Positions 32,378 to 64,000 of a DNA stretch of 64,000 nucleotides are shown piece by piece; positions within the stretch are counted from its first letter, which is position 1, and each line of letters begins with the position of its first letter. Both the position numbers and the translations under genes were made by a program. The notes below the pieces were generated by a model, which ran no database searches, was not told the DNA's origin, and was given only the letters and a program-made list of their open reading frames with translations. Origin of the DNA: Erythrobacter sp. (GTDB taxonomy: Bacteria; Pseudomonadota; Alphaproteobacteria; Sphingomonadales; Sphingomonadaceae); the NCBI GenBank assembly GCA_027311945.1, contig DAICXZ010000030.1, positions 310,001 to 374,000 on the forward strand, given 5' to 3'.

Positions 32378-32428
32378 GACTGATCTCCGCAAATCTTGTG
32401 TCGATTTCGCCGCCCCAACTTTTCCACG

Positions 32429-32580: not shown

Positions 32581-32620
32581 GCGGCAAAATCTTGCCGTCT
32601 GGGCGGCAAGATTTTGCCGC
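32581..32620. promoter_or_regulatory. Paired FlbD-type enhancer palindromes forming a perfect 17-bp inverted repeat
   Basis: Arms 32581-32597 and 32604-32620 are perfect reverse complements around TCTGGG. Each arm contains its own palindrome, CGGCAAAATCTTGCCG (32582) and CGGCAAGATTTTGCCG (32604), that fits CGGC(A/G)AN4TTGCCG, 22 bp apart. The pair lies about 140 bp upstream of the candidate sigma-54 promoter of flagellin 1. It has no T tract, and the two-site layout fits activator binding better than termination. Confidence 0.7.
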
Positions 32621-32781
32621 CTTTTGCCGCTTTGGCGGGCAGCCATTTTTTTGTGCCTGCGGGTTAATTTCTGCGCTTCTATGCAGTCACCCACAGACGC
32701 GGGATCATCGCGATGTAAGAGCTGCCTTATATTTGGGGTGGCATGGAAAGGACCCGAACCAATCCCTTTCTCCAACGCAAA

Positions 32782-32813
32782 GGGCCCCGGCATCCAGATG
32801 GATACCGGGGCCC
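32782..32813 (-). terminator. Intrinsic terminator of flagellin 2
   Basis: A 14-bp GC-rich stem (32782-32795 with 32800-32813, one mismatch) with a 4-base loop lies 38 bp after the flagellin 2 stop. The T tract on the minus strand is short (TTTGCGTT). Its sequence is closely related to the flagellin 1 terminator. Confidence 0.85.
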
Positions 32814-32850
32814 CGTTGGGGCGCCGTTTGCGGAACGGCGGTGGAAAGTC

Positions 32851-48716: not shown

Positions 48717-49094
48717 ATGCTGATGCTCCGCCAAAACCCGCACGACGCGTACCGCAAGGTGCAGGTCAACGCCCGTATCCTGGGTTCGGATCATAAGGAC
48801 CTCGTCGCGATCTGCTTCGAGCAGGTGGTGAGCGAAGTTGGCCGCGCTATCCGCGCCAACGAGACGGGCGATACCACCAACCGTTCCGAAGCGCTGACCC
48901 GCGCCATCGCCGCGATCACCGCGCTGGAAATGGGCCTCGATCGCAGCAACCCCGTGGCCGGTGCGCTCGAACAGCTTTACGGCGCTGCGCGAGAGACGAT
49001 CCTCGGCTGCGTAGTCTCGTTCAATACCGAGGCCATGAGCGAAGTGCGCTCGGACTTTGCCGAGATCGGCGCTGCCCTTACCGCGGCAAACTAA
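48717..49094 (+). CDS. fliS: Flagellin chaperone FliS
   Basis: This 125-residue, all-helical protein has YRKVQVNARILGSDHKDLVAICFEQVVSEVGRA, corresponding to the FliS core that binds the flagellin C terminus. ATG 48717 comes 2 bp after the fliD stop. It is the last flagellar gene and converges with the esterase gene, sharing 4 bp. Confidence 0.9.
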   Translation: MLMLRQNPHDAYRKVQVNARILGSDHKDLVAICFEQVVSEVGRAIRANETGDTTNRSEALTRAIAAITALEMGLDRSNPVAGALEQLYGAARETILGCVVSFNTEAMSEVRSDFAEIGAALTAAN

Positions 49095-50404: not shown

Positions 50405-50830
50405 TTAGTTGCCGGCGCGGCGGGCCGCAGCGGCCACGGCCTCGGTGGTCGGGTTGCCGAGCGACAGCTCGCGACCGTTCGGGAAGCGGATTTCCGCCGC
50501 CGAAGCGCGGGTGTCGCCATCGCGTGCCTGGAAGGCGTCGACGATGATATCGGTGCCCGCGGGCAGCGAGTTCCTGTTCCAGCCACGACGCAGCAGGGCC
50601 GAAGGCGCGCCGCCTTCGATGCGCCAGCGCTCGGCCTTGCCGTTGCGGTTCACGTCGATGTGAATCCAGGAGTGGGGGTTCACCCACTCGAACATCACGA
50701 CCTTGCCCGAGAGGCGGATCGGCTTGTTACGGTCGAATTCGGTGGCGAACGAGTGGTGAGCGGCGGCCCCCACTGCGGTGATCGCCAGCACGGCGCCGAT
50801 TGCGGCAGCGCTGAGCTTCTTGATCTGCAT
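50405..50830 (-). CDS. DUF6152 exported protein
   Basis: This 141-residue protein has a signal peptide ending AAA near residue 23, after which the mature end starts HHSFATEFDRNKPIRLSGKV; the segment FEWVNPHSWIHIDV is the DUF6152 hallmark. A histidine at the mature N terminus and further histidines could bind copper, but that is speculation. DUF6152 genes often stand beside PQQ-type propeller genes, as here. It ends at a clear terminator. Confidence 0.83.
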   Translation of the reverse strand: MQIKKLSAAAIGAVLAITAVGAAAHHSFATEFDRNKPIRLSGKVVMFEWVNPHSWIHIDVNRNGKAERWRIEGGAPSALLRRGWNRNSLPAGTDIIVDAFQARDGDTRASAAEIRFPNGRELSLGNPTTEAVAAAARRAGN

Positions 50831-50904
50831 GGTTTACTCCTTGTCAAAATCCCCGGGTTTCGGACAAATCTCAAATTGACTTTGTCTTTTTGCCCGACCC
50901 AACA

Positions 50905-51774
50905 TTACTCTTCGATTAAGTCGCCGTAGAGCAGGTGCTCGGAGAACGGCACGCACTTGAACTCAAGCAGTTGCGCATTCTCTTCCATCCGCCGGTACAG
51001 CGGCATCTTGATCGTCCACGGACGGGTGTAGATCGTCGGATCGTCGATCGTGGCTTCATAGTCGATGTGGTTCGGCCCCATCGGCGTGAAGCGCTCGGTG
51101 ACGGTCGCGTGATTGGTGAGGTAGTTGCCGTTGCGATCGAGCCAGGTAACGCCGTCGATCATCTCGCCGCCGGGCAGCTTCACCAGGCCGGGCCCCTGCG
51201 CCAGCGTGGTCACGACGAGCGTATCGCCTTCCCACTGGCCGTAAGATGTGCCCATCCAGGTGTCGATCGGCGGAATGCCGACTTCTTCCATATGGATCAC
51301 GCGGTTGGCCGAGGCATATTCGTAGGCGATCAGGATATCGTCGCCATCGCCCTGAATGATCTGGAACGGGTGCGGCATATAGGTCGCACGCGGAATGCCG
51401 GGCAGATAGCAGGCAGCTTCCGGATCCCAACTGATGACGTTCTCGCGGTTCTTGTTAAGCCGCTCCAGCGCTTCGGGCTTGTACGGAATCTCGCCGCCTT
51501 CGACGACGCCCAGGCTGGGCGGCACGGCACCGATAGCGCCGAGCAGCCTGTCGCCTTCGGGCAATGGGTTCGGGCCGGCGCTGTGCGGCTCGAGGTTCCA
51601 ATTGGCCTCGTTCATCACCTGCCACACACCGTTGATATTCGGTGCATCGCCGATGCGCGCCGGTGCGCTGGCTTCGTGATCCTGGGCAACTGCCGACGTG
51701 GTGGGCACGCTTGCGCAGCCGGCAAAGGCTAGCGCCGATGCCGCCAACAAGCTCAAGTGTTTAATCCCCCGCAT
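50905..51774 (-). CDS. Exported lipoprotein distantly related to the ACHEGN family
   Basis: This 289-residue protein has the lipobox ALAFAGC around residue 19, so it should be membrane-anchored. ATG 51774 is chosen because AGGAGAGG stands just before it. The C-terminal part shares a scheme with the three proteins at 59248-62555: MGTSYGQWEGDTLVVTT, VTERFTPMGPNHIDYEATIDDPTIYTRPW and LLEFKC, plus an earlier DPEAACYLPGIP. No enzymatic motif is recognised. It lies 17 bp downstream of a PQQ propeller gene and probably forms an operon with it. Confidence 0.75.
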   Translation of the reverse strand: MRGIKHLSLLAASALAFAGCASVPTTSAVAQDHEASAPARIGDAPNINGVWQVMNEANWNLEPHSAGPNPLPEGDRLLGAIGAVPPSLGVVEGGEIPYKPEALERLNKNRENVISWDPEAACYLPGIPRATYMPHPFQIIQGDGDDILIAYEYASANRVIHMEEVGIPPIDTWMGTSYGQWEGDTLVVTTLAQGPGLVKLPGGEMIDGVTWLDRNGNYLTNHATVTERFTPMGPNHIDYEATIDDPTIYTRPWTIKMPLYRRMEENAQLLEFKCVPFSEHLLYGDLIEE

Positions 51775-51791
51775 GACCTCTCCTGTATGCA

Positions 51792-53711
51792 TTACTGATT
51801 GAGTGCGAACGCTGCGATCATGCCGCCGGCATTGATCGCGACATATTGTCTGCCGTCACGGCCCCGATAGGTCATCGGGTTCGCATTGGCGTTACCGTTA
51901 AGTACGCTTTCCCAAAGCTGCTCGCCAGTTGCAGCATCAAAGGCGCGCAAGCGCTTATCGTTGGTGGCGCCGACGAACACAAGTCCGCCCGCGGTCACGC
52001 TCGGCCCGGCGCTGCCCGAATTGCCGAGCACCTGGCGCCCCTCGGGCAGTTCCTCGAACATGCCGAGCGGCACCGCCCAGGCGATTTCGCCGGTGTTGGC
52101 GTTGACGGCGGTGAGGCGCGCCCACGGCGGCTTGTAGCACGGCGCACTGGTGCCGACCGGGCGGCCGCGCTCGTCGTACTCGCCCGAGAGCGGCGCGCTG
52201 AAGGTGAAGAACGGGCCTTTGCCGTCGACGCTGGCGCGGTCATACTCGGGCGCCGAGGTGGCATCGAAGCTGTAGGGCTTTTCGCCCTCGACCTTCTCGA
52301 CCCAGCCGACCAGCGAGGTATCCTGCGCGTTCACGTAGACGAGGCCCGTGGTCGGATCGGCCGCTGCGCCGCCCCAGTTCACGCCGCCCGTGCCGCCCGG
52401 CAGCTGGATGGTCGAACGCGGCGGAGCGCCCGCTTCCTTGAAGGCGAACGGGGTGAACGGGCCGGAATTGAAGAATCCGCCCGCCTTTTCCCACATCGCA
52501 TAGCAGGCTGCCGAGTGTTCTGGCGTGGTATCCTCGGGGCTGACGATGTCCTGATAGGTCATCTCGACCCGGCTCAGCGGCGGGGTGACGACCGGGAAGG
52601 GCTGGGTGGGGTGATAGTATTCGCCCGGAACATCGCCCGGCGGCACCGGGCGCTCCTCGACCGGGAGCACCGGTTCGCCGGTCTCCGCATCGAGCAGGTA
52701 GAAGTAGCTCGATTTGCCGATATTGGCCAAGGCCATCTGGCCGCCCGTCTCGGTCTCCACCGGGATCAGCGGGCCGGCATTGCTCATGTCGATGTCCCAC
52801 ACATCGTGGTGCACGGTCTGGAAATGCCACTTGTACTCGCCGGTGCGCGCATCGACCGCGACCACCGAGTTGCCATAGACGTTGGTGCCGGGGCGGTCGC
52901 CGCCGTAGTAGTTGTGGGCGGGGCCAGCGATGGGCAGATAGGCGATGCCGGTGCTGGCATCGTAGGTCGCCTGGAAGCCCCACATGTTGGTGCCCCCGCG
53001 ATCCTTCCAGCCATCGCCCCAGGTCTCGTTATAGGGCTGGCCCGGATCGGGCGTGGTGTCGAACTCCCACAAACGCTCACCGGTGATCACATCGTAGCCG
53101 CGCGGATTGCCCGGTTCGCCTTGCGGGTTTTCGAGCGAGGCCGCGCCGATGATCATGGTGTTGCCCGCAATCGTGGGCGTGCCGCCATAGGCAGGGCCGC
53201 CCATCGCAATCGAGCCGTTCTCGCCGAAATTGGCAACAAGCTCACCGGTGGCAGCGTCGAGCGCGTAAATGCGGTCGCCCGCGGTAACCAGAATGCGCGG
53301 GGCATGGCCCGCATCGCCCGGCCAGTAGCTTACGCCGCGCCCGGAGAAGGTGCCGGGCCCGGCAAAGGCGCCCTGGCTGGCGGGAAGGTCGCCTTCGTGG
53401 ACCCAGATTTCCTCGCCCGTCGCGGCATCGAGCGCGACAACCCGGCTCTGCGCCGGGAAATACATCACGCCATCGACCACAATCGGGACAGCGGTGTTGA
53501 ACGCGCGCAGCGGATAGGACCAGGCCGATGCTAGGTCGCCCACATTGGCGCGGTTGATATCGGCCAGCGGGGAATAACGGGTGGCGGCGGCATCTCGCTG
53601 GATGCTGGGCCAGTCACCTTCGGCAGGCACGCCCTGCGCGACAAGGCTGCTCGCCGCAGTGCAGGCCAGCAGGGCCGCAGTTCCAGCCTTTAGCATTGCT
53701 CGCATAGCCAT
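51792..53711 (-). CDS. PQQ-dependent dehydrogenase-like beta-propeller protein, exported
   Basis: This 639-residue protein has a signal peptide ending VAQ near residue 25 and a quinoprotein propeller built from repeats such as GDRIYALDAATGELVANFG and TGEQLWESVL. The WPSIQRDAAATRYSPL start and VHHDVWDIDMSNAG segments match glucose-dehydrogenase-type quinoproteins. PQQ enzymes oxidise alcohols or aldose sugars in the periplasm. There is no CXXCH haem motif, so electrons would pass to a separate carrier or quinone. ATG 53711 is taken; a second ATG at 53705 is possible. PQQ synthesis genes are not in the window. Confidence 0.85.
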   Translation of the reverse strand: MAMRAMLKAGTAALLACTAASSLVAQGVPAEGDWPSIQRDAAATRYSPLADINRANVGDLASAWSYPLRAFNTAVPIVVDGVMYFPAQSRVVALDAATGEEIWVHEGDLPASQGAFAGPGTFSGRGVSYWPGDAGHAPRILVTAGDRIYALDAATGELVANFGENGSIAMGGPAYGGTPTIAGNTMIIGAASLENPQGEPGNPRGYDVITGERLWEFDTTPDPGQPYNETWGDGWKDRGGTNMWGFQATYDASTGIAYLPIAGPAHNYYGGDRPGTNVYGNSVVAVDARTGEYKWHFQTVHHDVWDIDMSNAGPLIPVETETGGQMALANIGKSSYFYLLDAETGEPVLPVEERPVPPGDVPGEYYHPTQPFPVVTPPLSRVEMTYQDIVSPEDTTPEHSAACYAMWEKAGGFFNSGPFTPFAFKEAGAPPRSTIQLPGGTGGVNWGGAAADPTTGLVYVNAQDTSLVGWVEKVEGEKPYSFDATSAPEYDRASVDGKGPFFTFSAPLSGEYDERGRPVGTSAPCYKPPWARLTAVNANTGEIAWAVPLGMFEELPEGRQVLGNSGSAGPSVTAGGLVFVGATNDKRLRAFDAATGEQLWESVLNGNANANPMTYRGRDGRQYVAINAGGMIAAFALNQ

Positions 53712-54089
53712 TGCTGCCGAATCACCCTCTCGCCTGATGTCGCTCTGCCGGTTCAGGCGACTTGTTGATTCTGTCCTAAACTGCAGGCCGAAGTTTGACA
53801 ATGCCTTCTCGCTACGAAAAGCTTTGGCAGCGCTCAGGCACGAGGCATATGCCTTGGATGCGAAGCAAAGTGCGGAAAACAGCGCCTTTATCCGGCACGT
53901 TACATTCTAACGTATAGATTGGTAACAATTGCGCAGGGTAATGAAAGCTGCCAAATAGGCTTGGCGGATAGGGAGATGCTCGCTAGCGGGTTTGCGCAAG
54001 ATCAAGGCGAGGAAGCTTCGGACAGGGTCAATCTGGCCGTGGCAACAAACCTTAACTAAGAGCCAAAAACAACGAGGGGTACAGGGCCG
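53712..54089. other. Divergent intergenic region, no gene
   Basis: This 378-bp space separates the minus-strand PQQ gene from the plus-strand DUF6644 pair and must carry promoters for both. It is more AT-rich than its surroundings near 53895-53945. I could not pick out a convincing -35/-10 pair, a hairpin or an operator. Confidence 0.6.
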
Positions 54090-54626
54090 ATGGGCGATCT
54101 ACTTTTCAATTTAACGGACTGGATGAGAGGCACCGTCCTGCTCGACTGGGCGTTCTGGATGCAGGAAACTGCGTTCAGCCTGTTCATGGTCGAGAACTTC
54201 TGGAACGTGCCGATTGCCCAGGCGATCCATATCCTCGCGATCGGTGCCGCTTTCGGGTCGGTGCTGATGGTGGTGCTGCGCGTGAACGGTATGGCCGGGG
54301 CGGGCCTTACCTTCGAGCAGACCGCGGCGCGCTTCGTGCCGTGGGTGCGCTGGGGCCTGTTGGTGATCGTGCTTTCGGGGCTGTCCATGATCATGGCCGA
54401 ACCGGTGCGCAACATGATCAACGCCGTGTTCTGGATCAAGATGATCGCGCTGATCGTGATGGTCCTCGTCTCGCTTTCCTGGATCAAGTCGATCCGCGCG
54501 AGCGCCGAGGCGGCGGGCGTCGGCTATGTTGGGGCGGGCGGTGCCAAGGCCACCGGCTGGCTCATCATGGCGCTGTGGTGTCTGATCATCGTGTGCGGTC
54601 GCTGGATCGCCTACGTGCCGGTGTAA
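54090..54626 (+). CDS. DUF6644 membrane protein, first copy
   Basis: This 178-residue protein has about four to five membrane helices, for example IAQAIHILAIGAAFGSVLMVVL, WGLLVIVLSGLSMIM and GWLIMALWCLIIVCGRWIAYV. Histidine and acidic residues inside helices (AIHIL, ETAF) recall haem- or quinone-binding membrane proteins, but no function is known for DUF6644. It pairs with a second copy after 16 bp and stands beside PQQ propeller genes, so a membrane electron-transfer role is a possible, unproven reading. Confidence 0.75.
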   Translation: MGDLLFNLTDWMRGTVLLDWAFWMQETAFSLFMVENFWNVPIAQAIHILAIGAAFGSVLMVVLRVNGMAGAGLTFEQTAARFVPWVRWGLLVIVLSGLSMIMAEPVRNMINAVFWIKMIALIVMVLVSLSWIKSIRASAEAAGVGYVGAGGAKATGWLIMALWCLIIVCGRWIAYVPV

Positions 54627-54642
54627 GGGGGAGTTTCAAGAC

Positions 54643-55227
54643 ATGTATTATCCTGAACCGACGACGATCTGGGAATCGATCCAGTATTCCCCGCTCGGCA
54701 TCTTCATCGCCGAAAGCACCTGGGCCTTCCCCACGATCGAGACGATCCACGTGATCGCGCTGGTCACCGTGCTCGGCACGATCTTCGTGATGGACCTGCG
54801 CCTGCTGGGTGTCGCCTCGAAGAACTATCCGATCACCTCGATGAGCCGCGATACCTTGAAGTGGACATGGGGGGGCTTCGTCCTCGCGGCGATCACCGGC
54901 ACCTTGCTCTACATCTCCAAGACGTCGAGCTACATGATCAACCCGTTCTTCATGGGCAAGATGGTGCTGCTGGCGATTGCTGGTCTCAACATGGCCTATT
55001 TCCACTTCGTGACGTGGAAGACGGTGGCGAACTGGGACACCTCGCCGGTCGTGCCGACGGGCGCCAAGGTGGCGGGCATCACCTCGCTGATCTTCTGGAT
55101 CACCATCGTGTTCTTCGGCCGCGCGATCGGCTTCACGCTGGGCATCTACGACTGCTACATGGTCGGGCAGGGCGACGATGGCTTCATCGTCAGCATGCTG
55201 GCCGGGATCGCCTGCGCAGGCGCCTGA
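54643..55227 (+). CDS. DUF6644 membrane protein, second copy
   Basis: This 194-residue membrane protein shares the plan of its neighbour: FPTIETIHVIALVTVLGTIFVMDLRLLG as the conserved opening helix (compare VPIAQAIHILAIGAAFG), then LKWTWGGFVLAAITGTLLYIS and MGKMVLLAIAGLNMAYFHFV. The shared histidine in helix 2 and the glutamate before it are striking. It ends at a strong bidirectional terminator. Confidence 0.75.
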   Translation: MYYPEPTTIWESIQYSPLGIFIAESTWAFPTIETIHVIALVTVLGTIFVMDLRLLGVASKNYPITSMSRDTLKWTWGGFVLAAITGTLLYISKTSSYMINPFFMGKMVLLAIAGLNMAYFHFVTWKTVANWDTSPVVPTGAKVAGITSLIFWITIVFFGRAIGFTLGIYDCYMVGQGDDGFIVSMLAGIACAGA

Positions 55228-55247
55228 TCCCAACCTGATCGAACAAT

Positions 55248-55286
55248 AAAGGGGCAGGCGGACCACGGTTCGCCTGCCCCTTTTTT
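55248..55286. terminator. Bidirectional intrinsic terminator
   Basis: GGGGCAGGCG (55251-55260) pairs with CGCCTGCCCC (55271-55280), followed by six T on plus and preceded by AAA on the other side. It ends the DUF6644 pair and can also stop the convergent cytochrome c-PQQ gene. Confidence 0.93.
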
Positions 55287-55290
55287 GTAC

Positions 55291-57402
55291 TCACTCGGGC
55301 AGGGCGAAGACCGTGATCGCCGCCGAGGGAACCGCAGGCGTCGGCAGTTCCGGGGTGAAGCCGGGCAGGCCGAACGAGAGCGGATTGCCCGCTCCCGCGA
55401 CCACCGCGACATATTGCTTGCCGTCCACCGCATAGGTGATCGGCGAGCCATTGGGCACGCCGGTGAGCGCGCTGCGCCAGATCTGCGCGCCATCGTCCTG
55501 CCGGTAGGCGAGAAACGCGCCGTCCATGCCGCCGGTGAACAGCAGCCCGCTGGCCGTGGCGAGCATCCCCATGTCGTAAGGCGCGCGCCGGCGGGTTTCC
55601 CACTTCACCTCGCCGGTGGCCATGTCGATGGCCTGGACGAAGCCGAAATTGCCGTCGGAATCGGCGGGGGCGGCGTAGTAGATGTTGACCCCGCTGGTCA
55701 GAAACCCGCCCTCGGCCACCGGCCGCATCTCCATGCAGGTGTCGCGCGCGTTCACGAACAGCGTGCCGGTCGCCTCGTCGAAGGACGTCGGGCTCCAGTT
55801 GCGCCCGCCGCCTGCGTGCGGGCACATGAACACAGATGGCCGGTCGCGGCCCGGTATCTTGCTCGGGTCGACGCTCTTGCGGCCGGTCACCGGGTCTATT
55901 GCGGTGATGAAGTCCTGAAAGCCCATGTCGGCGGTGGAGATATACTGGCCGGTGGCGGCATCGAGCGTGTCGAACAGGCCCTCCTTGCCGCCAGTCATCA
56001 CCACGTGACGGCGCTGGCCGCCGATGTCGAGATCGCCGATCACGCGTTCGAACACCCAGTCGAGGTCGTACTGATCATTGGGCACGTGCTGGTAGTACCA
56101 CCTCAGCTCGCCCGTGCGCGGCACGAAGGCGAGGGTGGAGTTGGTGAACAGCCCGTCGTTGTTCGCGCCGGGCAGGGCATCGCGATAGGGGCCGGTGTCG
56201 TAAGTCTGCGCGACGCCCCACAGCGCGAGACCGGTTTCGGCGTCGTAGGTGCCGCTGGTCCAGACCGAGCCCCCGCGCCGTTCCTCATCGGGCACCCGGT
56301 TCCAGGTGTCGCCGCCTTCGGTGCCGTTCTTGGCGACGGTGTCGAAGGTCCACAGGTGCGCGCCGGTTTCGGCATCGAAAGCGGCGATAATCCCGCCGCC
56401 GGGCTCCTGCGTGGCAAGTCCTGTCATGATCACGCCATCGGCAGCCAGCGGCCCGCCGTTGCTGCGCATACCAGGCCGATCGGTGACCTTCACGTCCCAC
56501 ACCGGCCGCCCGCTGCGCGCATCTAGCGCGACCAGCGCATTGTCCGAGGTCGCGACGTAAAGTTTGTCGCCATAGAGCGCGATTGTCTTCTTGGAGAGCG
56601 GCGCGACATCATCAGGCAAGCGCCGATCATAGCGCCACAACTGGCGGCCCGTGGCGGCATCGAAGGCGAACACGCTGTCGCCAAAGCCGAAGACATAGAG
56701 CACGCCGTCGCGCACCAGCGGCTCGTTCATTGTTGCACCGGGCGGCAGGGCTTGCGACCAGGCTACCTGCATGGTGGCGATGTTGTCGGGCGTGATCTGC
56801 GCCAGCGGCGAATAGCCTTGTCCCTGATGCCCGCGCCGCCAGCTGAGCCAGTTTTCCGGCGCCGGATTGGACAGCATGGCCTGCGTCACCGGGGTGTAGT
56901 TCTCGAAGCGGTCGACCGGCTCGGGCGCGGCGGGGAAGGGGTAGCGGTCGGTGATGCCGCCGATGCCCAGTTCGTTGCCTTGCTCGCTCTCCGGGGCGGG
57001 AGGTAGCTGCGGCCCGGCGAGCTGGCCACCGGCAAAGCTTAGTGCCGCATCGCCCGTCGCGCCGTTTTCCGACAGGATGAGCGCGGCGAGATCGACATAG
57101 TCGGCCTCATCAAGCGCGCTGGAGCCGCCCGGTGGCATCGAGCGGTGGATATAGTCGAACAGCTCGGCGGCGGGCACTTCGCCCCATTTGCCGAGAAAGG
57201 CCCCGCCCTTCAGCGCACCTGCAAACTGGCCGCCGGCAAGATCGGCCCCGTGGCACATCGCGCAGTGGACAGCGTAGGTCTGGCGGCCGCGCTCCGCCTG
57301 TTCCGCAAAGCCAGTGCCCGATTGCGCGGCAACAGCGCCAGCGAGCCCCATTGCTGCCAAGCCAGCCGATGCCAGCAGCAGCGTCCCCTTTTTCCGTGTC
57401 AT
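55291..57402 (-). CDS. Cytochrome c/PQQ beta-propeller fusion protein, exported
   Basis: This 703-residue protein has a signal peptide ending AAQ near residue 27, an N-terminal cytochrome c domain with the haem site CAMCHGADLAGG (near residue 47) and a methionine-bearing SMPPGG loop, and then a propeller from about residue 150 (NWLSWRRGHQGQGYSPLAQI). Repeats such as VFAFDAATGRQLWRYDRR and LVALDARSGRPVWDVKV belong to the PQQ family. Most quinohaemoproteins carry the haem domain at the C terminus; here it is at the N terminus. ATG 57402 has a GGGAGAG ribosome site. The likely role is periplasmic alcohol or aldehyde oxidation with direct electron exit through haem. Confidence 0.87.
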   Translation of the reverse strand: MTRKKGTLLLASAGLAAMGLAGAVAAQSGTGFAEQAERGRQTYAVHCAMCHGADLAGGQFAGALKGGAFLGKWGEVPAAELFDYIHRSMPPGGSSALDEADYVDLAALILSENGATGDAALSFAGGQLAGPQLPPAPESEQGNELGIGGITDRYPFPAAPEPVDRFENYTPVTQAMLSNPAPENWLSWRRGHQGQGYSPLAQITPDNIATMQVAWSQALPPGATMNEPLVRDGVLYVFGFGDSVFAFDAATGRQLWRYDRRLPDDVAPLSKKTIALYGDKLYVATSDNALVALDARSGRPVWDVKVTDRPGMRSNGGPLAADGVIMTGLATQEPGGGIIAAFDAETGAHLWTFDTVAKNGTEGGDTWNRVPDEERRGGSVWTSGTYDAETGLALWGVAQTYDTGPYRDALPGANNDGLFTNSTLAFVPRTGELRWYYQHVPNDQYDLDWVFERVIGDLDIGGQRRHVVMTGGKEGLFDTLDAATGQYISTADMGFQDFITAIDPVTGRKSVDPSKIPGRDRPSVFMCPHAGGGRNWSPTSFDEATGTLFVNARDTCMEMRPVAEGGFLTSGVNIYYAAPADSDGNFGFVQAIDMATGEVKWETRRRAPYDMGMLATASGLLFTGGMDGAFLAYRQDDGAQIWRSALTGVPNGSPITYAVDGKQYVAVVAGAGNPLSFGLPGFTPELPTPAVPSAAITVFALPE

Positions 57403-57493
57403 GCGCAGCTCTCCCAAAGCGCCTGTCCGCCCACGGCTTTATGCCTGTGGGTCGGACACGGAGCCTATCTGCGCGTCAGTGTAGGCGCAATCG

Positions 57494-59158
57494 CTAGTCG
57501 GCAATGCCCAGCGGAGCCGCCACCTTGGCTTCGAACAGCGCATCGTAAAGCTGCACCTTCGCAGGTGCGATCCAGTCGCCGACGCCCGATTTCCCGGCAT
57601 CGAGCACCATTACCTTGCCTTCAGGCACCGCCTCGACCTCAGGCCACTGCGGCAGTTCCGCGCCGTTGGGATTGCCGGTGGCGGCGAAGTTTACCCAATA
57701 CTGGCTGACGAGATCGGCAAAGGCCTCTTCTTCCGGGTTGCCGCACATCTGCTCGACCGAGGAGCCACCAGGGAAGGTGCGCGGGGCGCACAGGTTGTCG
57801 AACACATAGGGGATCTCGCCGGTGTGCGCGGCGCCGAGGTTGCCCCGGCCCTCGTCATAGGGCGGATCGTGGCGGAACCAGTAGTGGTAGGCCTTCTGGC
57901 CGAGCTGCGCCTGATATTGCGCGAACTGGCGGTGCAGCCAGCTCATGTTGTCACCGAAGGGCTGGGTGGCGGTCGCCTGCGCTTCGGCATCGGTGCTGAC
58001 CGGATAGGCCGCACGGCCGAGTTCCACCTGATCGCCCCAGCGCATGGCCTCGCCCGCGTTCCAGCTTGCGAGCGTGGCGGGCGGGCCGAACAGGGCGGTG
58101 AAGCTGCCTTCGTCTTCGTTCGAGCCGGTCAGCACGTCGACCTTGAGCTGGCGGCCTTGCGCAAAGGTGATCGACAGGTCTTCCGGCACGATGCGTCCGT
58201 CGATGATCATGCCTTGGCCTGGAATGGCGGCGAAAACTTCTTCGGCAGGCAGCGCGCGCAGTTCGGCAAGGCTGGTGGTGCCGAGCTTCTCCTGCGCGGC
58301 GGCGACACTGCGCTGCTCGGCGGCTTCGCGCGGAACCATGGGGGCGATGTTAAGGCCCATCCAGTTGCCCGATTCGCTGATGACGCGGGTGATCAGGCCC
58401 TCAGCTGGAGGAGCGCCCGCCAGCGCGCCGTTCATCGCCGCGCCCGCGCTCTCGCCAAAGATCGTCACGCGCGTGGGGTCGCCGCCGAACGCCGCGATAT
58501 TGTCCTGCACCCATTGCAGGGCGGCAATCGCATCGCCCAGCGCCTGATTGCCCGAGTGGCCATCGCGCGCGGTCAGTTCCGGGTGGGCGAAGAAGCCGAG
58601 CGAGCCGACACGGTAGTTGAACGTGACGACGATCGCGCCCTTCTTGGCGAGCTGGTCGCCCTGGCTGAACGGCGAGGAACCGCCGCCTTCGTTGTAAGCG
58701 CCGCCATAGAGCCAGACCATGACCGGCAGCTTTGCATCCGCTTCGGTCGCCGGGGTCCAGACGTTCAGATAAAGGCAGTCTTCCGAAATGCCGGGGCTGT
58801 CGGGCATGTCGGTCGCGGAATTGACCGGGAACCGCTGCGGGGCCGGGTTCTGCACGCAGCTGTCGCCCCAGCGGTCTGCCTGGCGCACATCTTCCCAGCT
58901 TGCGGCAGGCTGCGGCTGCTCCCAGCGCAGCTCACCCACCGGCGGGGCGGCGAAGGGAATGCCCTTGAATACAGATATGCCGTCGAGCTTGCCCGCCGTG
59001 CCCTGCACAAGACCGGCTTCGGTCATTGCCACTCGTTTGGCCAGCGATGCCTCTGTTTCAGACGCGACTTGCGCAATTGCGCTTTCAGCCGTGGCACAAG
59101 CGGCCATTCCAAAGCAGGCCATGGCGGTAAGCGCGCTGCGCGCAAGCGTGGTGAACAT
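57494..59158 (-). CDS. Type B carboxylesterase, exported
   Basis: This 554-residue alpha/beta hydrolase has a signal sequence with a possible lipobox (FGMAACATA). The catalytic motif is VTIFGESAGAAMNGAL; EDCLYLNVWTP and GIPFAAPPVGELRW are family marks, and the histidine lies in AAHTGEIPYVF. These enzymes hydrolyse carboxyl esters of varied size. ATG 59158 is preferred to 59167 because AGGA is then correctly spaced. Its place inside the PQQ island suggests it releases an alcohol that the quinoproteins then oxidise, an inference from context. Confidence 0.88.
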   Translation of the reverse strand: MFTTLARSALTAMACFGMAACATAESAIAQVASETEASLAKRVAMTEAGLVQGTAGKLDGISVFKGIPFAAPPVGELRWEQPQPAASWEDVRQADRWGDSCVQNPAPQRFPVNSATDMPDSPGISEDCLYLNVWTPATEADAKLPVMVWLYGGAYNEGGGSSPFSQGDQLAKKGAIVVTFNYRVGSLGFFAHPELTARDGHSGNQALGDAIAALQWVQDNIAAFGGDPTRVTIFGESAGAAMNGALAGAPPAEGLITRVISESGNWMGLNIAPMVPREAAEQRSVAAAQEKLGTTSLAELRALPAEEVFAAIPGQGMIIDGRIVPEDLSITFAQGRQLKVDVLTGSNEDEGSFTALFGPPATLASWNAGEAMRWGDQVELGRAAYPVSTDAEAQATATQPFGDNMSWLHRQFAQYQAQLGQKAYHYWFRHDPPYDEGRGNLGAAHTGEIPYVFDNLCAPRTFPGGSSVEQMCGNPEEEAFADLVSQYWVNFAATGNPNGAELPQWPEVEAVPEGKVMVLDAGKSGVGDWIAPAKVQLYDALFEAKVAAPLGIAD

Positions 59159-59207
59159 CGATGGCATCCTGTTTGTTTCGCCGGCCTTCTGCGGGCCGGA
59201 AAGTCGG

Positions 59208-59237
59208 TTGGCGGACGCTCGGGCGAGCGCCCGCCAA
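59208..59237 (-). terminator. Hairpin between carboxylesterase and ACHEGN gene 1
   Basis: Thirteen-base arms (59208-59220 and 59225-59237) pair with one mismatch around GGGC. No T tract follows on either strand, so it may be an attenuator or RNA-processing site that separates the expression of the two genes. Confidence 0.5.
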
Positions 59238-59247
59238 TCACTGGTGC

Positions 59248-60369
59248 TTAGTGCGAGGTGTTGCCCGCCGCATCTTCTTCGCTCAGCGCTTCGAGCCCGG
59301 CGCGTGAGGCGGTGATGTAGTTGCGCGGCTGCACGTTGCCCTCGTGGCAGGCATATTCGAAGAACGAATAGTCGTTGTCCTGCGTCCAATCGAGGCGCGC
59401 CGTCCACTTGTCGGTGAAGACCTCGGGGTCATTGTAGGTCAACTCGTAAACGATGTGGCCCGGATCGGTCATCGTCAGGCGCTCGGTCACCTTGGCGTTA
59501 GCGCCGGTCGGGATGGTGTTGAACGGCGGCACGCCCATGGTCGCCATGTTGAGCGGCGAGGGGCCGCGGCTGTAGGTATCGTGCGGCACGCTGTCGCCGG
59601 AGACGATATTGGTCGTCTCGATCACCAGCGTGTTGCCTTCCCACCAGCCGATCGACTGGCCCATCCACGCGCGCACGTCACCGGGCCAGCGCATGGCATC
59701 GGCGGCCGCCTTGTTGGCCACGATCGGAATCACGCGGGCATCGTGGATCATTTCCAGCTGAATGGTGACGAAGCCCGGCGCCTGCAGCACGCGGATGCCG
59801 TTGTTATAGCGGAACGGGAACATCGAGGCGGGGAAGCCGCGCGTGATGCAGCGATCCCAGGTGTCGAAATCGCCCAGCCACTCGAAATTGGTGTTCGGCG
59901 TCCAGCTCGACCGGCCTGCCTGATAGCGCTTCTGCGCATCTTCGGTCAGCGAAGGAAGCTGGCCGCTGGCGGGATAGACCAGCAGCGAGGTGCGGCGGCC
60001 CGAGGCATCCGATTCCACCCAGTGGCCCATACCGATGGTGCCGGCCTCTTCCTCAGCGGCATAGGCGGCATCCGAGCGGCCTGCCTGCTCCTGCCGGGCG
60101 GCGAATTCCTCTTCGGTGAGGTAGAAGCGATCGCCATATTGCGCCGGACGGTTCATCGGCAGGCTGGCGATGTTGTCGATCGGATAGGTGCCGCGCAGGT
60201 CCGGGTCGCCCCAGCTGGTCTTGGGCGGATCGAAGGTGGTGGGCACCGGGGCGATGGTGGTCAGGTCGTCGGGCACGACGTTCTGCGCCGCAGCGGGCAT
60301 AGCGAGGGCCAGCGAACTGGCCGACAGAACGAACATGGTTCGTCCGAGCATGGTCTTCAAAGTGGTCAT
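59248..60369 (-). CDS. ACHEGN family exported protein 1, unknown function
   Basis: This 373-residue protein has a signal peptide ending AAAQ near residue 28. Conserved parts shared with its two neighbours are SWGDPDLRGTYPIDNIASLP, WDRCITRGFPASMFPFRYNNG, the WEGNTLVIETTN segment and FEYACHEGN near the C terminus. Two cysteines and one histidine are invariant in the three copies, which could make a disulphide or metal site. No known enzyme motif is present. Related proteins occur in sphingomonads and acidobacteria next to PQQ propellers. ATG 60369 follows a GGAGAG ribosome site. Confidence 0.8.
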   Translation of the reverse strand: MTTLKTMLGRTMFVLSASSLALAMPAAAQNVVPDDLTTIAPVPTTFDPPKTSWGDPDLRGTYPIDNIASLPMNRPAQYGDRFYLTEEEFAARQEQAGRSDAAYAAEEEAGTIGMGHWVESDASGRRTSLLVYPASGQLPSLTEDAQKRYQAGRSSWTPNTNFEWLGDFDTWDRCITRGFPASMFPFRYNNGIRVLQAPGFVTIQLEMIHDARVIPIVANKAAADAMRWPGDVRAWMGQSIGWWEGNTLVIETTNIVSGDSVPHDTYSRGPSPLNMATMGVPPFNTIPTGANAKVTERLTMTDPGHIVYELTYNDPEVFTDKWTARLDWTQDNDYSFFEYACHEGNVQPRNYITASRAGLEALSEEDAAGNTSH

Positions 60370-60392
60370 TGCGTTCTCTCCTGAAATCGGTT

Positions 60393-60418
60393 GGTGGCCA
60401 GACCCCTTTCCGGCCACC
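60393..60418 (-). other. Hairpin between ACHEGN genes 1 and 2
   Basis: GGTGGCC (60393-60399) pairs with GGCCACC (60412-60418) around a 12-base loop in the 57-bp gap. No T tract is present. It may adjust relative expression of the two paralogues. Confidence 0.4.
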
Positions 60419-60426
60419 GGCAAATA

Positions 60427-61536
60427 TCAATCTTCGCGGCGCTTGAGGCCTCCGGCAGCCGGGTCCATCGCCGGGGGCGGCCCGGCGTTCTCGCCCACGG
60501 GTTCGAGCATGATGCCGCGGGCATATTCCTGCTCGCGCCGGGCGCGGTCGGACGTGATGTAGCCGCGCAGTTGCACGTTGCCCTCGTGGCAGGCATATTC
60601 GAACATCTGGTAGTCGTCTTCGCGGGTCCAGTTCACGCGCAGGGTGAAGGGCGCGGTCCAGATCACCGGGTCTTCATAGGTCATTTCGTAAGTAATCGTA
60701 TCAGGGCCAACCATGGTGAAGCGCTCCACCACCTTTGCCTCTTCGCTCACCGGGGTGGTGTTGTTGCCCGGAACGCCCAGCGTGCCGTTCGAGAATACCG
60801 AAGCGCCGGTGGTGAGGTTCGTGGTCTCGACCTCAAGCGTGTTGTGATCGACCCAGCGCCCCCGGCTCGATCCGTACCAGCCGGTGACAGCCTCGGGCCA
60901 GTGCCCGCCTTCGCCCACGGGAATGACACGCGTGCCGAGCATCTCGATCACGATGGCGACCTGGCCGGGCGACTGGAAAATGCGCAGGCCGTTGTTATAG
61001 CGCGCCGGATACATCGCGGCGGGGAAACCGCGCGTGATACAGCGGTCGTAGCTGTCGAAGTCGTTGGTCCAGTCGTAGGTCTGCCCGATCAGCCAGCTTG
61101 AGCGCATCAGCGCCGAGCGGCGGCGGCCTTCGTCGGTCCAGTCGGGCAGGCGGCCATCGGCGGGCGAGACCACCATCGACGTGCGGCGAACACCGGCCTC
61201 ATATTCGATCCAGTGGCCAAGGCCGATGGTCGACTGCTCGTCCTCGACCTCGTAGGCCTCTTCCAGAGCTTCGACCTTGCCCTGTTCGGCGGCCATTTCC
61301 TCGGGCGTCTTCCAGAACCGGTCGCCATAGCGCTCGGGCCGGTTGACCGGCAGGTCGGCGATGTCGTTGATCGGCCAGCTGCCGCGCAGGTCAGGCTCAC
61401 CCCACGAGGTGAGGCTTGGCTGATAGGCGTCGGACACCGGCGGCATGACGGTGAGGTCTTCCGGAGCCTCTTGCGCGGCAGCGGGCAGGGCGAGTGCAAG
61501 GCCCGCTGCTCCGATCAGGAATAGTTTTCGGTTCAT
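60427..61536 (-). CDS. ACHEGN family exported protein 2, unknown function
   Basis: This 369-residue protein has a signal peptide ending AAAQ near residue 22, followed by LTSWGEPDLRGSWPINDIADLP, YDRCITRGFPAAMYPARYNNG, GRWVDHNTLEVETTNL and FEYACHEGNVQLRGYI. It is clearly a paralogue of the genes on both sides. A C-terminal extension of about 25 residues, rich in Pro and charged residues, is unique to this copy. The stop region overlaps nothing, but its start overlaps the end of... gene 3 by 4 bp, so the pair is translationally coupled. Confidence 0.8.
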   Translation of the reverse strand: MNRKLFLIGAAGLALALPAAAQEAPEDLTVMPPVSDAYQPSLTSWGEPDLRGSWPINDIADLPVNRPERYGDRFWKTPEEMAAEQGKVEALEEAYEVEDEQSTIGLGHWIEYEAGVRRTSMVVSPADGRLPDWTDEGRRRSALMRSSWLIGQTYDWTNDFDSYDRCITRGFPAAMYPARYNNGLRIFQSPGQVAIVIEMLGTRVIPVGEGGHWPEAVTGWYGSSRGRWVDHNTLEVETTNLTTGASVFSNGTLGVPGNNTTPVSEEAKVVERFTMVGPDTITYEMTYEDPVIWTAPFTLRVNWTREDDYQMFEYACHEGNVQLRGYITSDRARREQEYARGIMLEPVGENAGPPPAMDPAAGGLKRRED

Positions 61537-62555
61537 TGCGGCTCTCCCCCATTTTCGCGTTCTGCGCGCGAAGCTGTAATGAAGTTGCGCACCTGGACGT
61601 TGCCCTCGTGGCACGCATATTCGAACATGCCATAATCGTCGTCGCGCTGCCATTCGAGGCGGGCGGACCAGGGCTGGGTGAAGACCACCGGGTCTTCCCA
61701 GGTGAATTCGTAGATGATCTCATCCGGGCCGACCATGTGGAACCGCTCGGTCAGCTTCGCCTCTTCGCTCACCGGAGTGCGGTTGTCGGGCGGGGAACCG
61801 GTGGTGCCGATATTGGTGGCGCTGGGGCCGGGCTGGAAATTGGTGGTGACCACTTCGAGTGTGTTGTGATCGGTCCACTGGCCGCGGCTCTCGCCCATCC
61901 AGTGCAGGATCTGGCGCGGGATCGGGGCGCTGCCATCGGTCGGGATCAGGCGCGTCTCGTGGACCATCTCGAGCTGGATGGCGACGAGACCCGGCGACTG
62001 GAAAATGCGAATGCCGCTGTTGTACATGAACGGAAACATGCTGGCGGGGAGGCCGCGGGTGATGCAGCGGTCCCAGCTGTCGAAGTCGGTCCAGCTGTCG
62101 AAGGGCTGATCGCGCACCCAAGTGCTGCGCATGGCGTCCGACAGGCGCTGGCCCTCTGCGGTAAAGGCGGGCAGCTGGCCGTCAGCCGGCGCGGTGATCC
62201 ACGATGTGCGACGATTGGCGGCGGCGACTTCGGCCCAGTGGCCGATGCCCATGGTGCCGCTTTCGTCCTCGTTCTGGTAGCGTTGTTCGAGCTGCTCGAC
62301 CGCGCCTGAACGCGCGGCATATTCCTCCTCGTTAAGAAGCTGGCGATTGCCCTGCTCGGCGGGGCGTTGCAACGGCGTGCGACCATTGAGGTGGTCGATC
62401 GGCCAGCCGCCGCGGAAATCTGGTTCGCCCCAGCTTGTCAGCGTGGGACGATAGGCGTCGGAGGGGGCGGGAAGGACGGTAAGGTCCTCCTGCGCCACGG
62501 CGCTGCCACCCGCGAAAAGCGCGGCTGCCGCCAGCAGGAACCGCCCCCCCGACAT
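61533..62555 (-). CDS. ACHEGN family exported protein 3, unknown function
   Basis: This 340-residue protein has a signal peptide ending AVAQ near residue 22 and LTSWGEPDFRGGWPIDHLNGR, WDRCITRGLPASMFPFMYNSG, GQWTDHNTLEVVTTNF and FEYACHEGNVQVRNFI. It starts 2 bp after the stop of the upstream PQQ gene, with GAGGG as ribosome site inside that gene's end, so the order in the operon is PQQ propeller, copy 3, copy 2, copy 1 (minus strand). Confidence 0.8.
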   Translation of the reverse strand: MSGGRFLLAAAALFAGGSAVAQEDLTVLPAPSDAYRPTLTSWGEPDFRGGWPIDHLNGRTPLQRPAEQGNRQLLNEEEYAARSGAVEQLEQRYQNEDESGTMGIGHWAEVAAANRRTSWITAPADGQLPAFTAEGQRLSDAMRSTWVRDQPFDSWTDFDSWDRCITRGLPASMFPFMYNSGIRIFQSPGLVAIQLEMVHETRLIPTDGSAPIPRQILHWMGESRGQWTDHNTLEVVTTNFQPGPSATNIGTTGSPPDNRTPVSEEAKLTERFHMVGPDEIIYEFTWEDPVVFTQPWSARLEWQRDDDYGMFEYACHEGNVQVRNFITASRAERENGGEPQ

Positions 62556-62557
62556 CG

Positions 62558-64000
62558 TTACTGGCCCTCGGGCAGGGCGAAGGTGACGTACTTGCTCGGC
62601 CCCGGCTCGGGCAGGCCGAGGCCGCCCGCGAAATGGCCCACGCCGCCGACGGGCACGGTGATATATTGCCGCCCGTTCAGCGAATAGATCGCCGGTACGC
62701 CCTCGGTCGCCGCATCGAAGCGGTATTCCCACAGGACTTCGCCGGTATCGGCGTCGCGGGCGCGGAAGGCGCGGTCGGTCGCGGTGCCAACGAAGATCAG
62801 GCCGCCCGCCGTCGCTACCGGTCCGCCGCGCGGAGCCTGTGCGCCGACGCCGGTGATGCCCTTCTCCTCCAGCGTGAGGATCTCGCCGTTGGGCACCTCG
62901 TAAAGCTTCTCGCCCGTGGCCATGTCATAGGCGGTGAGCAGCGAGAAGGGCGGCTCGATCGGCACCATGCCGTTGGACTGTAACCAGAAATTGGTCGGCC
63001 AGCGATAGGGCATCACGTCTTCGTCACCGCTGTTGGGCATGGCCTCCAGCGCGCTTTCGCGCCGGTCGGGCATGAGGTTCAACAGCAGCGGCAGCTCGCG
63101 GCTGACGACATAGACGCGCTTCCTCACCGGATCGCTCGCCACGCCGCCCCAATTCACGCCGCCGTTGTGGCCGGGCATCGAGACCGAGCCAGTGCCAAGG
63201 CTGGGCGGGGTGAACAGCCCATCATTGCGGGCCGTGGCGAGCTGTTCGCGCACCTTGGCCTGATCTTCCTCGGAAATGTAAGGATTGATCATCGTGGCAT
63301 CGAAGTGATCGCGCCCGAACCGTTCGGGCCAGGTCGGCACCGGCTGGGTGGGCGAGCTGTGTTCGCCCGGCACATCCGACTGCGGCACGGCCACCTCTTC
63401 GATCGGCCAGATCGGGGTGCAGTCGCGCCGGTCCAGCACGAACAGGAAGCCCTGCTTGCTGGGCTGAATGACGACCGGCACATCCTGGCCATCGTGCCGG
63501 ATGGTCATCAGCTTGGGCGCGGTCGGCAGGTCGAAGTCCCACAGGTCGTGGTGAACGGTCTGGAAATGGCAGACGCGCTCGCCGGTTTCCGCATTCAGCG
63601 CCAGTACCGAGTTTGCGAAGAGGTTATCGCCGGGGCGGTTGCCGCCGTAGAAATCATAGCGCGCGGTGCCGGTGGGGATGTAGGCGATGCCCGTTTCCTC
63701 ATCGATCGTGAATTCCGACCAGTTGTGAATACCGCCGAACTTCTCGCGATCTTCGGTTGGCCAGGTGTCCGAACCGAACTCGCCTTCGCGCGGGACCACG
63801 TGGAACACCCATTTCAGCGCGCCCGTGCGCACGTCATAGGCGCCGATGTCCGCGGGCGAGGAGGCGTAGTCGTAGTGCCCGGCGGGCAGGGGCACGATGA
63901 ACGTGTCCTTGTAGATGCGGCCCGGATTGTCGTTCATCAGCGGGCCGTTGGGCGCGGTGCCGTCGGGCCGCAGGATGCCGCGCAGGTCGACGCCGCCGTC
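62558..64000 (-). CDS. PQQ-dependent dehydrogenase-like protein, C-terminal part (cut by window end)
   Basis: The frame is open from the window end to the stop at 62558, giving 480 residues of the C-terminal part. The propeller is seen in IGAYDVRTGALKWVFHVVP, VLALNAETGERVCHFQTVHH and TGEVLWEYRFDAAT. GGVNWGGVASDP and TAGGLIFVGTATDRAFRARD match membrane or soluble glucose-dehydrogenase-type quinoproteins. The start, signal or membrane part lies beyond the window, so the exact type remains open. It is the first visible gene of the operon with the three ACHEGN genes. Confidence 0.85.
   Translation of the reverse strand, partial: DGGVDLRGILRPDGTAPNGPLMNDNPGRIYKDTFIVPLPAGHYDYASSPADIGAYDVRTGALKWVFHVVPREGEFGSDTWPTEDREKFGGIHNWSEFTIDEETGIAYIPTGTARYDFYGGNRPGDNLFANSVLALNAETGERVCHFQTVHHDLWDFDLPTAPKLMTIRHDGQDVPVVIQPSKQGFLFVLDRRDCTPIWPIEEVAVPQSDVPGEHSSPTQPVPTWPERFGRDHFDATMINPYISEEDQAKVREQLATARNDGLFTPPSLGTGSVSMPGHNGGVNWGGVASDPVRKRVYVVSRELPLLLNLMPDRRESALEAMPNSGDEDVMPYRWPTNFWLQSNGMVPIEPPFSLLTAYDMATGEKLYEVPNGEILTLEEKGITGVGAQAPRGGPVATAGGLIFVGTATDRAFRARDADTGEVLWEYRFDAATEGVPAIYSLNGRQYITVPVGGVGHFAGGLGLPEPGPSKYVTFALPEGQ

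Follow-up and report, generated by a model that had tools for sequence, protein, structure and literature searches.

Do the PQQ (pyrroloquinoline quinone)-type propeller genes, the carboxylesterase gene and the genes of the DUF6152, DUF6644 and ACHEGN families that crowd one end of a 64,000-nucleotide stretch of an Erythrobacter sp. genome form a single periplasmic oxidation system? The window, by which we mean this whole stretch, is contig C10:310001-374000 of a genome of 3.04 Mb in 33 contigs that is 99.95% complete; positions are those of the window unless marked as contig. The genes lie between 50405 and the window end (Table 1) and belong to an island that spans contig ~384600 down to 360405, partly past the window end. 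We find that the island is a real conserved cluster rather than chance crowding, and that DUF6152 and DUF6644 are partners independently of it. Whether the window holds one half of a conserved catabolic cluster for periplasmic oxidation, with a relay that serves the oxidation, we regard as evenly poised. A first-pass annotation had proposed a possible periplasmic oxidation system here; its coherence and joint inheritance are well supported by gene order and co-occurrence, and the individual roles that it assigned are only partly backed. It noticed neither the partnership of DUF6152 with DUF6644 nor the continuation of the cluster past the window end.

At least 79 loci were gathered through the long ACHEGN proteins, using the patterns FEYACHE and DFD[ST][WY]DRC. 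The order and orientation of the genes from PQQ3 to DUF6152 are kept in 12 of these loci (L053-L058, L060, L063, L065, L067, L069, L096), eleven labelled as genera or groups of Sphingomonadales and one (L054) only as Alphaproteobacteria, and a thirteenth collinear locus (L246) comes from another genus of the same family. Because the genes are collinear in 13 other loci, the cluster is more than a product of chance. The copies vary in detail: the collinear stretch ends at the locus or contig edge in L056, L069 and L096; PQQ2 is missing from L067 and L069, and only a short frame stands in its place in L060; L096 has an additional long ACHEGN gene ahead of PQQ1; and L067 carries the VOC gene and PQQ4 on the opposite side of DUF6152. 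The full island was not seen within the stretch examined in the 67 other loci, among them a Steroidobacteraceae contig (L091) with a DUF6644 pair, an esterase, long and short ACHEGN genes and DUF6152, and no PQQ gene in the stretch examined. Gene labels in the loci come from profiles built from these same loci. Gene calls come from a home-made codon-usage caller that misses genes, including DUF6152 in L188 and several DUF6152 or DUF6644 genes in L237, L238, L248, L250 and L257; a six-frame check recovered missed genes of these two families.

The part that recurs in most copies runs from PQQ4 to DUF6152 and ends ~6 kb past the window, and the flavin adenine dinucleotide (FAD) monooxygenase, the alpha/beta hydrolase and PQQ5 do not occur in every copy. 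Conservation within the cluster is highest for DUF6152, with 81-93% identity in L054, L055, L058, L063 and L065 against 44-82% for the others labelled in all five. Two esterases had been counted in the span from 50405 to 64000. Only the carboxylesterase lies inside it; the second, a PF00756 esterase at 49091-50284, falls outside and stands beside DUF6152 in none of the five relatives that show a gene beyond DUF6152 (L060, L063, L065, L067, L246).

The same gene families also travel together across the genus. Among the 37 genus genomes (our own included) common to the searches for DUF6152, DUF6644 and long ACHEGN proteins (the last at E 1e-20), these families were found in 24, 23 and 23 genomes, respectively. 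All three occur together in 22 of the 37 and none occurs in 13; the two mixed genomes are G005, without DUF6644 and 69% complete, and G036, without a long ACHEGN protein. None of the three was found in 24 more distant genomes of the order. At least 20 of the 23 genomes with both have DUF6644 no more than 6 kb from one of the DUF6152 genes listed, and the exceptions (G006, G033, G035) are drafts of 160-430 contigs. Gene order in 13 loci and co-occurrence in 37 genomes thus show that the components do not scatter, the outcome that the first-pass annotation had named as refuting its proposal. The genus genomes share ancestry and some named loci come from the same genomes, and it tells against our reading that these counts are not independent trials.

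Outside the genus, the association of DUF6152 with DUF6644 persists away from the rest of the cluster. Of 398 genomes sampled from the whole phylum, 29 gave a DUF6644 match, which was over cut-off in 21. All 27 DUF6644 places outside the genus (L233-L259) were taken with wider stretches and analyzed by gene calls and six-frame search, and 25 of them contain DUF6152. In 21 of the 27 (L238-L245, L247-L259), some of which share a genus and so are not 21 independent cases, DUF6152 sits a short way upstream of DUF6644, on its strand, and no ACHEGN gene was recognised nearby; among these, DUF6644 is a tandem pair in L248, and in L250 the two genes are ~1.2 kb apart centre to centre with a PQQ gene ~8 kb off. 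Four more (L233, L235, L237, L246) have ACHEGN genes besides DUF6152 and DUF6644. Together with three paired loci inside the family that were chosen for a known DUF6152 (L189, L190, L195), 17 of the 21 have the two genes as direct neighbours by gene calls, on the same strand in 20/20 and with a gap of 0-20 bases in 16. A GMC oxidoreductase was considered as a further partner of the pair and rejected: its four copies are confined to two genera of a single family and show no signal peptide by eye, and a fifth candidate, in L251, is a tRNA synthetase.

DUF6152 is likewise found next to ACHEGN genes. An ACHEGN-type protein is its direct neighbour in 10/10 cluster-locus cases (mean of shuffles 3.0, maximum 8), in 24/25 in other loci (mean 9.0, maximum 17) and in 5/5 in four further loci of our own genome (mean 0.7, maximum 4); the first two sets were fetched through ACHEGN proteins and their counts show adjacency, not frequency, from which the own-genome set is exempt. 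Of 30 listed DUF6152 loci, 27 have an ACHEGN-type match within ~1.5 kb and the other three have DUF6644 there instead. The DUF6152 and ACHEGN pair seems to be reused alongside different catabolic enzymes. The four own-genome loci (L042 8053-10624, L043 9211-10249, L044 9170-10548, L045 9741-10866) each hold a short ACHEGN-type protein.

A search of the DUF6152 sequences revealed a histidine signature at the expected start of the mature protein. All 90 open reading frames (ORFs) of a first set carry HH, and in each of the 85 that are unique after de-duplication the −3/−1 signal-peptidase rule is satisfied directly before HH, with Ala at −1 in 79. At other sites the rule holds in 14 to 58 of the 85 (−6 to −1) or in none (+1 to +4). 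NPH follows at +25 or +26 in 85/85. In a second, partly overlapping set (L188-L259), 34/34 ORFs satisfy the rule, with NPH in 28, GPH in 3 and PPH in 3. A 31-row alignment, trimmed by hand to begin at HH (the counts of 85 and 34 ORFs are independent of the trimming), also has F4, G18, N27, P28, H29, E48, G59 and G68 invariant. In all copies tested, the mature protein is expected to start with His-His, and a further conserved His stands in a PH motif. A structural model (predicted local distance difference test, pLDDT, 82) has Foldseek neighbours LysRS, SSB, TiaS, PriB and Stn1 (best E 1.1e-3), which we take to be holders of the oligonucleotide/oligosaccharide-binding (OB) fold, and by strand order and these neighbours DUF6152 is predicted to be an OB-fold. 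By sequence, no credible solved relative was found: adhesin 6xi3 matched over the whole sequence at E 1.2e-4 with no stretch passing alone. Divergent DUF6152 proteins that start with HHGWGW or HHGWAW and carry GNPHMH were seen in L192-L194 (genomes G030, G019, G034), beside genes that by eye resemble an AbgT-type transporter and an SRAP gene.

This signature resembles that of histidine-brace proteins, in that removal of the signal peptide at the expected site would expose an N-terminal His in a protein with a second conserved His. It differs in that the first His of DUF6152 is followed by another conserved His and that the brace geometry is not seen in the model. The classes named in the available part of PMC10952591 are lytic polysaccharide monooxygenase (LPMO), particulate methane monooxygenase (pMMO), CopC, PmoF1, Bim1/X325 and YcnI, and DUF6152 is not among them. 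The pairing with DUF6644 is also reminiscent of CopC-CopD and YcnI-YcnJ, since DUF6152 is an exported protein that is expected to begin with His and has a second His further on, and its partner is a small multi-helix membrane protein that is weakly CopD-like. The CopC fold is a beta-sandwich. DUF6152, unlike CopC, is predicted to be an OB-fold, and no CopC appears among the 50 best, marginal Foldseek matches of its model; DUF6644 would be only distantly CopD-like.

DUF6644 had been described as having conserved His and Glu within the membrane. All sequences (66/66) keep the His in the first hydrophobic segment; the Glu, present in 53/66, is not strictly conserved and is placed before that segment. 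Arg, Gly, Lys, Trp and a C-terminal Gly-Arg are invariant or nearly so. A relative in L233 (L233:9005) reaches 36.1 bits against CopD (PF05425; Pfam cut-off 32.1), the DUF6644 protein of G036 scores 30.4 bits (32.4 in the genome search), and 9 of 63 members match CopD at E <= 0.01 after one contaminant was removed. These matches point weakly to a distant kinship with CopD. An apparently strong match (E 1.8e-17, probability 70%) was due to that contaminant, the plain CopD-like protein L257:11141, and fell to 28% after its removal; a relationship to HupE was rejected on comparison. From its company of DUF6152, the CxxCH protein and PQQ enzymes, a redox or metal role for DUF6644 is favoured over a structural one. 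In L198-L200 (G030, G026, G021), a tandem DUF6644 stands by a TonB-receptor-like gene, a PepSY-type membrane-helix protein (both named by eye) and a CxxCH protein, a context that suggests redox or metal uptake.

At E 1e-5 the genome has ten PQQ-type propeller genes (on C10, C4 and C19), five of them in the island. PQQ4 and PQQ5 match PF01011 at E 1.7e-153 and 5.5e-68, and PQQ2 matches it at E 5.5e-60 and structure 22vi at E 1.4e-78. The catalytic Asp motif, whose Asp we take to be D308 in 1kb0, appears as VWD in PQQ1 and QYD in PQQ2, aligned with NWD, and by eye as LWD, LWD and TWD in PQQ3-5. PQQ5 exceeds the curated cut-off for PQQ alcohol dehydrogenases (641.9 versus 480 bits), and the other four island propellers are under the TIGR03074/TIGR03075 cut-offs. 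The proposal that the propellers oxidise an alcohol is thus supported by family membership and the aligned motif. They resemble PQQ alcohol dehydrogenases and quinohaemoproteins (1kb0, 4cvb, 22vi) in propeller family, in export as judged by eye, in the Asp motif and in the haem fusion of PQQ2 and PQQ5; they are unlike them in that the PQQ2 cytochrome domain is at the N-terminus rather than the C-terminus and that PQQ synthesis genes were not found. For pqqE, the best hit to the PqqE model in the genome has 54.5 bits against a cut-off of 381, a background seen in all 14 control genomes; pqqC is without a match in our own genome, and across 61 genomes no match exceeds the cut-off. With pqqC and pqqE not found, PQQ should come from outside or is not used.

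The other enzyme of the window side, the carboxylesterase, has the fumonisin B1 esterase FumD as its closest solved relative (8s6d, E 2.6e-77), but many type-B carboxylesterases match nearly as well, and the substrate is not fixed by this likeness. The notion that esterases free an alcohol is backed by one esterase inside the cluster, not two. Known mycotoxin and PQQ systems were considered as a ready answer and rejected: they gave leads such as DepA, and nothing that ties them to the gene set.

The ACHEGN proteins may supply binding. The three long ones have no Pfam match, two of the three also have no NCBIfam match, and by sequence no credible solved relative was found. The short lipoprotein, listed as a separate item by the first-pass annotation, matches the family at E 1.1e-12 and in alignment, with CHEGN replaced by CVPF, so that the triplet is confirmed and becomes a quartet. 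Two Cys are invariant in 88 aligned sequences and both are kept in the lipoprotein, which suggests a disulfide in an exported protein; the two search patterns account for some of this conservation, and that of their own motifs is biased. A model of mature L2 (pLDDT 90, predicted template modelling score 0.87) has an arm of ~160 residues, eight core beta strands and a C-terminal helix, and its best Foldseek matches are retinoic-acid-binding proteins (CRABP; E 1.2e-3 and up, target template modelling score ~0.4-0.5). The ACHEGN proteins are probably ligand binders with calycin-like beta-barrels as predicted by the model: like fatty-acid- and retinoid-binding calycins they have eight strands and then a helix, with CRABP as top match, and unlike them they have the N-terminal arm, the conserved Cys pair and the CHEGN motif, the match being at E ~1e-3 only. 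The earlier suggestion that they bind or modify the product is plausible for binding, given the predicted barrel, and has no support for modification. The best long ACHEGN match in named genomes, among the matches listed, is in Aurantiacibacter xanthus (96%), which makes an alphaproteobacterial host of the Erythrobacteraceae probable. A fourth long ACHEGN protein lies outside the island in our own genome (C1:59476-60684), where it stands alone, as do similar copies in many Sphingomonadales loci.

Taken together, these components would fit the following scheme. The carboxylesterase would expose a hydroxyl on a substrate that we infer is probably a hydrophobic, ester-containing alcohol; calycin-like ACHEGN barrels, two or three soluble and one lipid-anchored, would hold it or hand it over; PQQ1, PQQ3, PQQ4 and the haem-fused PQQ2 would oxidise it; and electrons would exit via small CxxCH proteins or c-type cytochromes. 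DUF6152, as an N-terminal-His OB protein, and the distantly CopD-like DUF6644 pair would serve this oxidation by relaying metal or electrons between periplasm and membrane, most likely with copper. PQQ, apparently not made by the cell, would be taken up. By analogy with CopC-CopD and the histidine-brace proteins of the available part of PMC10952591, the evidence suggests that DUF6152-DUF6644 may be a metal (perhaps copper) or electron-relay pair wired into PQQ oxidation. That the haem or the DUF6644 pair passes electrons, as first proposed, is plausible, since a homologue of the island CxxCH protein is repeatedly found with tandem DUF6644 pairs. Inside the cluster, DUF6152 possibly represents a new metalloprotein class. 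The fuller proposal, that DUF6152 is a new N-terminal-histidine, histidine-brace-like class of metalloprotein on an OB-fold, partnered by DUF6644 in many Pseudomonadota and here coupling PQQ oxidation to the membrane with ACHEGN carriers, we advance tentatively, as an idea that has about half as much chance of being right as of being wrong.

Several observations weigh against this reading. For DUF6152, the −3/−1 rule is also satisfied at +5 in 83/85 ORFs, so that a cut after the HHxFA motif would fit as well; the first three residues of the model, which hold HH, have pLDDT below 50 and a metal site is not seen; and the Foldseek matches for the DUF6152 and ACHEGN folds are marginal, none reaching E <= 0.001. 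The divergent DUF6152 proteins of L192-L194 have neither DUF6644 nor ACHEGN nearby, and L234 and L236 hold a DUF6644 pair with no DUF6152. Next to 20 DUF6152-DUF6644 pairs, a scan that covered 91 of 117 neighbours gave 113 families, and the 25 most frequent of these include no copper genes. The two DUF6644 proteins of the window have no CopD (PF05425) hit at E <= 10 within HMMER's filters, and the cleaned profile-profile comparison of DUF6644 with CopD is weak (P 6e-4, probability 28%; 10.7% with a smaller DUF6644 alignment). Single CopD sequences gave 12.9-21.0 in this comparison against up to 19.8 for 100 membrane-protein controls, single HemJ sequences gave 14.0-22.8, and the CopD and HemJ alignments gave 32.5 and 23.9; the controls are single sequences and the alignments are profiles, so that their scores are not directly comparable. 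CopD is matched just as well by HemJ-type proteins, which places DUF6644 in a broad group where copper versus haem is not fixed. As for the cofactor, the importer PqqU is largely absent from Alphaproteobacteria according to the available part of PMC12124388, and if PQQ is not taken up the propellers might be empty.

The strongest alternative keeps the oxidation and changes the relay: the DUF6644 pair would be a b-haem membrane unit (cytochrome-b561 or HemJ-like) that receives electrons from the PQQ enzymes by way of CxxCH proteins and passes them to the quinone pool, with DUF6152 as a minor accessory. HemJ binds haem b, and its His, Arg and Lys are essential. In DUF6644 His and Lys are invariant and Arg nearly so, and HemJ shares with some DUF6644 proteins a match to the CopD model. 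Tandem DUF6644 without DUF6152 occurs in nine genus loci (L197-L200, L228-L232) with a CxxCH homologue close by in 9/9, representing few distinct contexts, and the CxxCH homologue, a DUF6644 pair and DUF6152 occur together in L188, L235 and L237. The last two come from genomes of other families, L235 also with PQQ and ACHEGN genes and L237 with two ACHEGN genes. Each DUF6644 chain, though, has a single invariant His, and the match of DUF6644 to the HemJ profile is weaker than that to CopD (P 0.005 versus 6e-4). No homologue of the island CxxCH protein was recognised with the DUF6644 pairs of L191, L233, L234, L236 and L248, although a different CxxCH protein lies near the pair of L234. Outside the genus, DUF6152 rather than a cytochrome is the partner recognised in 21 of the 27 loci. 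We consider a haem relay somewhat unlikely.

Alternatively, DUF6152-DUF6644 could be a copper acquisition or tolerance pair of the CopC/CopD or YcnI/YcnJ kind that is linked to catabolic loci and has no role in the oxidation. The two conserved histidine positions of DUF6152 and the weak likeness of DUF6644 to CopD would suit this function, and the two-gene DUF6152-DUF6644 units share no common catabolic neighbour. In L233 (6292-14572; G382), DUF6152, an ACHEGN gene and the DUF6644 pair are followed by genes that by eye resemble a ZnuABC-type metal ABC transporter. The lack of copper genes among the commonest neighbour families speaks against copper supply, as does the ACHEGN gene that stands beside DUF6152 in most ACHEGN-surveyed loci and in the genus, for which a copper pair would have no need. 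We judge this explanation unlikely.

A less probable possibility still is that DUF6152 and the ACHEGN proteins assist TonB-dependent uptake by binding in the periplasm and that the PQQ enzymes merely share the locus. In our own genome L042, L043 and L045 are near genes that by eye resemble TonB-dependent receptors, and the predicted ACHEGN fold resembles a ligand-binding barrel; yet no receptor-like gene was noticed inside the conserved island, the PQQ genes are collinear in the 13 loci, and the conserved HH and PH favour metal over ligand binding. Finally, it is quite improbable that the propellers serve as scaffolds without binding PQQ, as the missing pqqC and pqqE, the rarity of PqqU in the class and a resemblance to the 'acido-empty-quinoprotein' model TIGR04528 (all under its cut-off) might imply, since the catalytic Asp motif is present in all five island propellers, PQQ5 passes a curated PQQ alcohol dehydrogenase cut-off and, in the available part of PMC12124388, many Gram-negatives with PQQ enzymes scavenge PQQ through PqqU rather than synthesise it.

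DUF6152, DUF6644 and the ACHEGN proteins, which had no recorded function, can now be placed in a common context, with predicted folds, conserved residues as candidate ligands and a partner, and the metal content of a 12-kDa protein and the haem stain of a 20-kDa membrane protein become cheap tests. Periplasmic PQQ oxidation is well known; its combination with calycin-like carriers and a DUF6152-DUF6644 pair was not met in the available portions of the literature searched. No description of the cluster was found in the open literature on periplasmic PQQ oxidation and quinoproteins, as far as its accessible text goes, and neither DUF6152 nor DUF6644 is named in the open literature searched. The lineage is rich in PQQ-type enzymes, its PQQ synthesis genes were not found, and the known importer is reportedly rare in the class (PMC12124388, available part).

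The features on the window side of the island are collected in Table 1, where export was called by eye from signal or lipobox sequences. The three PQQ-type propellers, the c-type haem domain with which PQQ2 begins, DUF6152 and the two DUF6644 proteins, the last three by Pfam profiles over cut-off, are all confirmed in the span from 50405 to 64000 that the first-pass annotation had given.

Table 1. Features of the island within the window, with strand and the match or observation on which each assignment rests
Feature	Position	Strand	Basis
DUF6152	50405..50830	-	PF19649 E 3.8e-33; 113.9 bits vs cut-off 27
Two His codons directly after the expected signal-peptidase site (AAA/HH) of DUF6152	50753..50758	-	sequence
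Short ACHEGN-family lipoprotein	50905..51792	-	likely start 51774; lipobox LAFAGC by eye
PQQ1, exported PQQ-type dehydrogenase, glucose/quinate-like, without haem	51792..53801	-	PF01011 E 2.5e-163; 1kb0 E 3.5e-48
DUF6644 copy a	54090..54626	+	PF20349 E 8.8e-7; 29.6 bits vs cut-off 27; four hydrophobic segments
DUF6644 copy b	54643..55227	+	PF20349 E 3.1e-10; 40.8 bits vs cut-off 27; three segments over simple hydropathy threshold
PQQ2, N-terminal cytochrome c domain, then alcohol dehydrogenase-type propeller	55291..57417	-	PF13442 residues 40-112; PF01011 from residue 190
Exported type-B carboxylesterase (COesterase)	57494..59167	-	PF00135 E 4.3e-98; start ATG 59167
Long ACHEGN protein 3 (L3)	59248..60369	-	without Pfam or NCBIfam match
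Long ACHEGN protein 2 (L2), the modelled one	60427..61536	-	88-sequence alignment
Long ACHEGN protein 1 (L1)	61533..62555	-	without Pfam match
PQQ3, PQQ-type dehydrogenase, lipobox by eye	62558..64000, on to contig C10:374588	-	PF01011 E 2.6e-169 (full gene)

Beyond the window, from contig ~384600 downward, the island continues with PQQ5 (a haem-fused quinohaemoprotein alcohol dehydrogenase), the FAD monooxygenase (closest solved relative PnpA, E 9.6e-86), the alpha/beta hydrolase, PQQ4 and an exported VOC/glyoxalase-domain protein for which no credible solved relative was found. Next come a small c-type cytochrome on the other strand, the CxxCH protein, whose match to cytochrome c' is below threshold, HupE_UreJ_2, a membrane-anchored protein without assignment and PQQ3. 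A plasmid origin was considered and rejected, as a search of 72,556 plasmid records at E 1e-5 gave no match to long ACHEGN protein L2; a plasmid link of PQQ2 was also set aside, its best match being in Sphingobium pTomTYG65b (41%) in a different neighbourhood. On the other side, flagellar genes (named by eye) adjoin the island at ~49 kb, and the flagellar region includes two flagellin-like genes (by eye) at 31553-33675 on the minus strand, which encode proteins of 274 residues each that are 86% identical.

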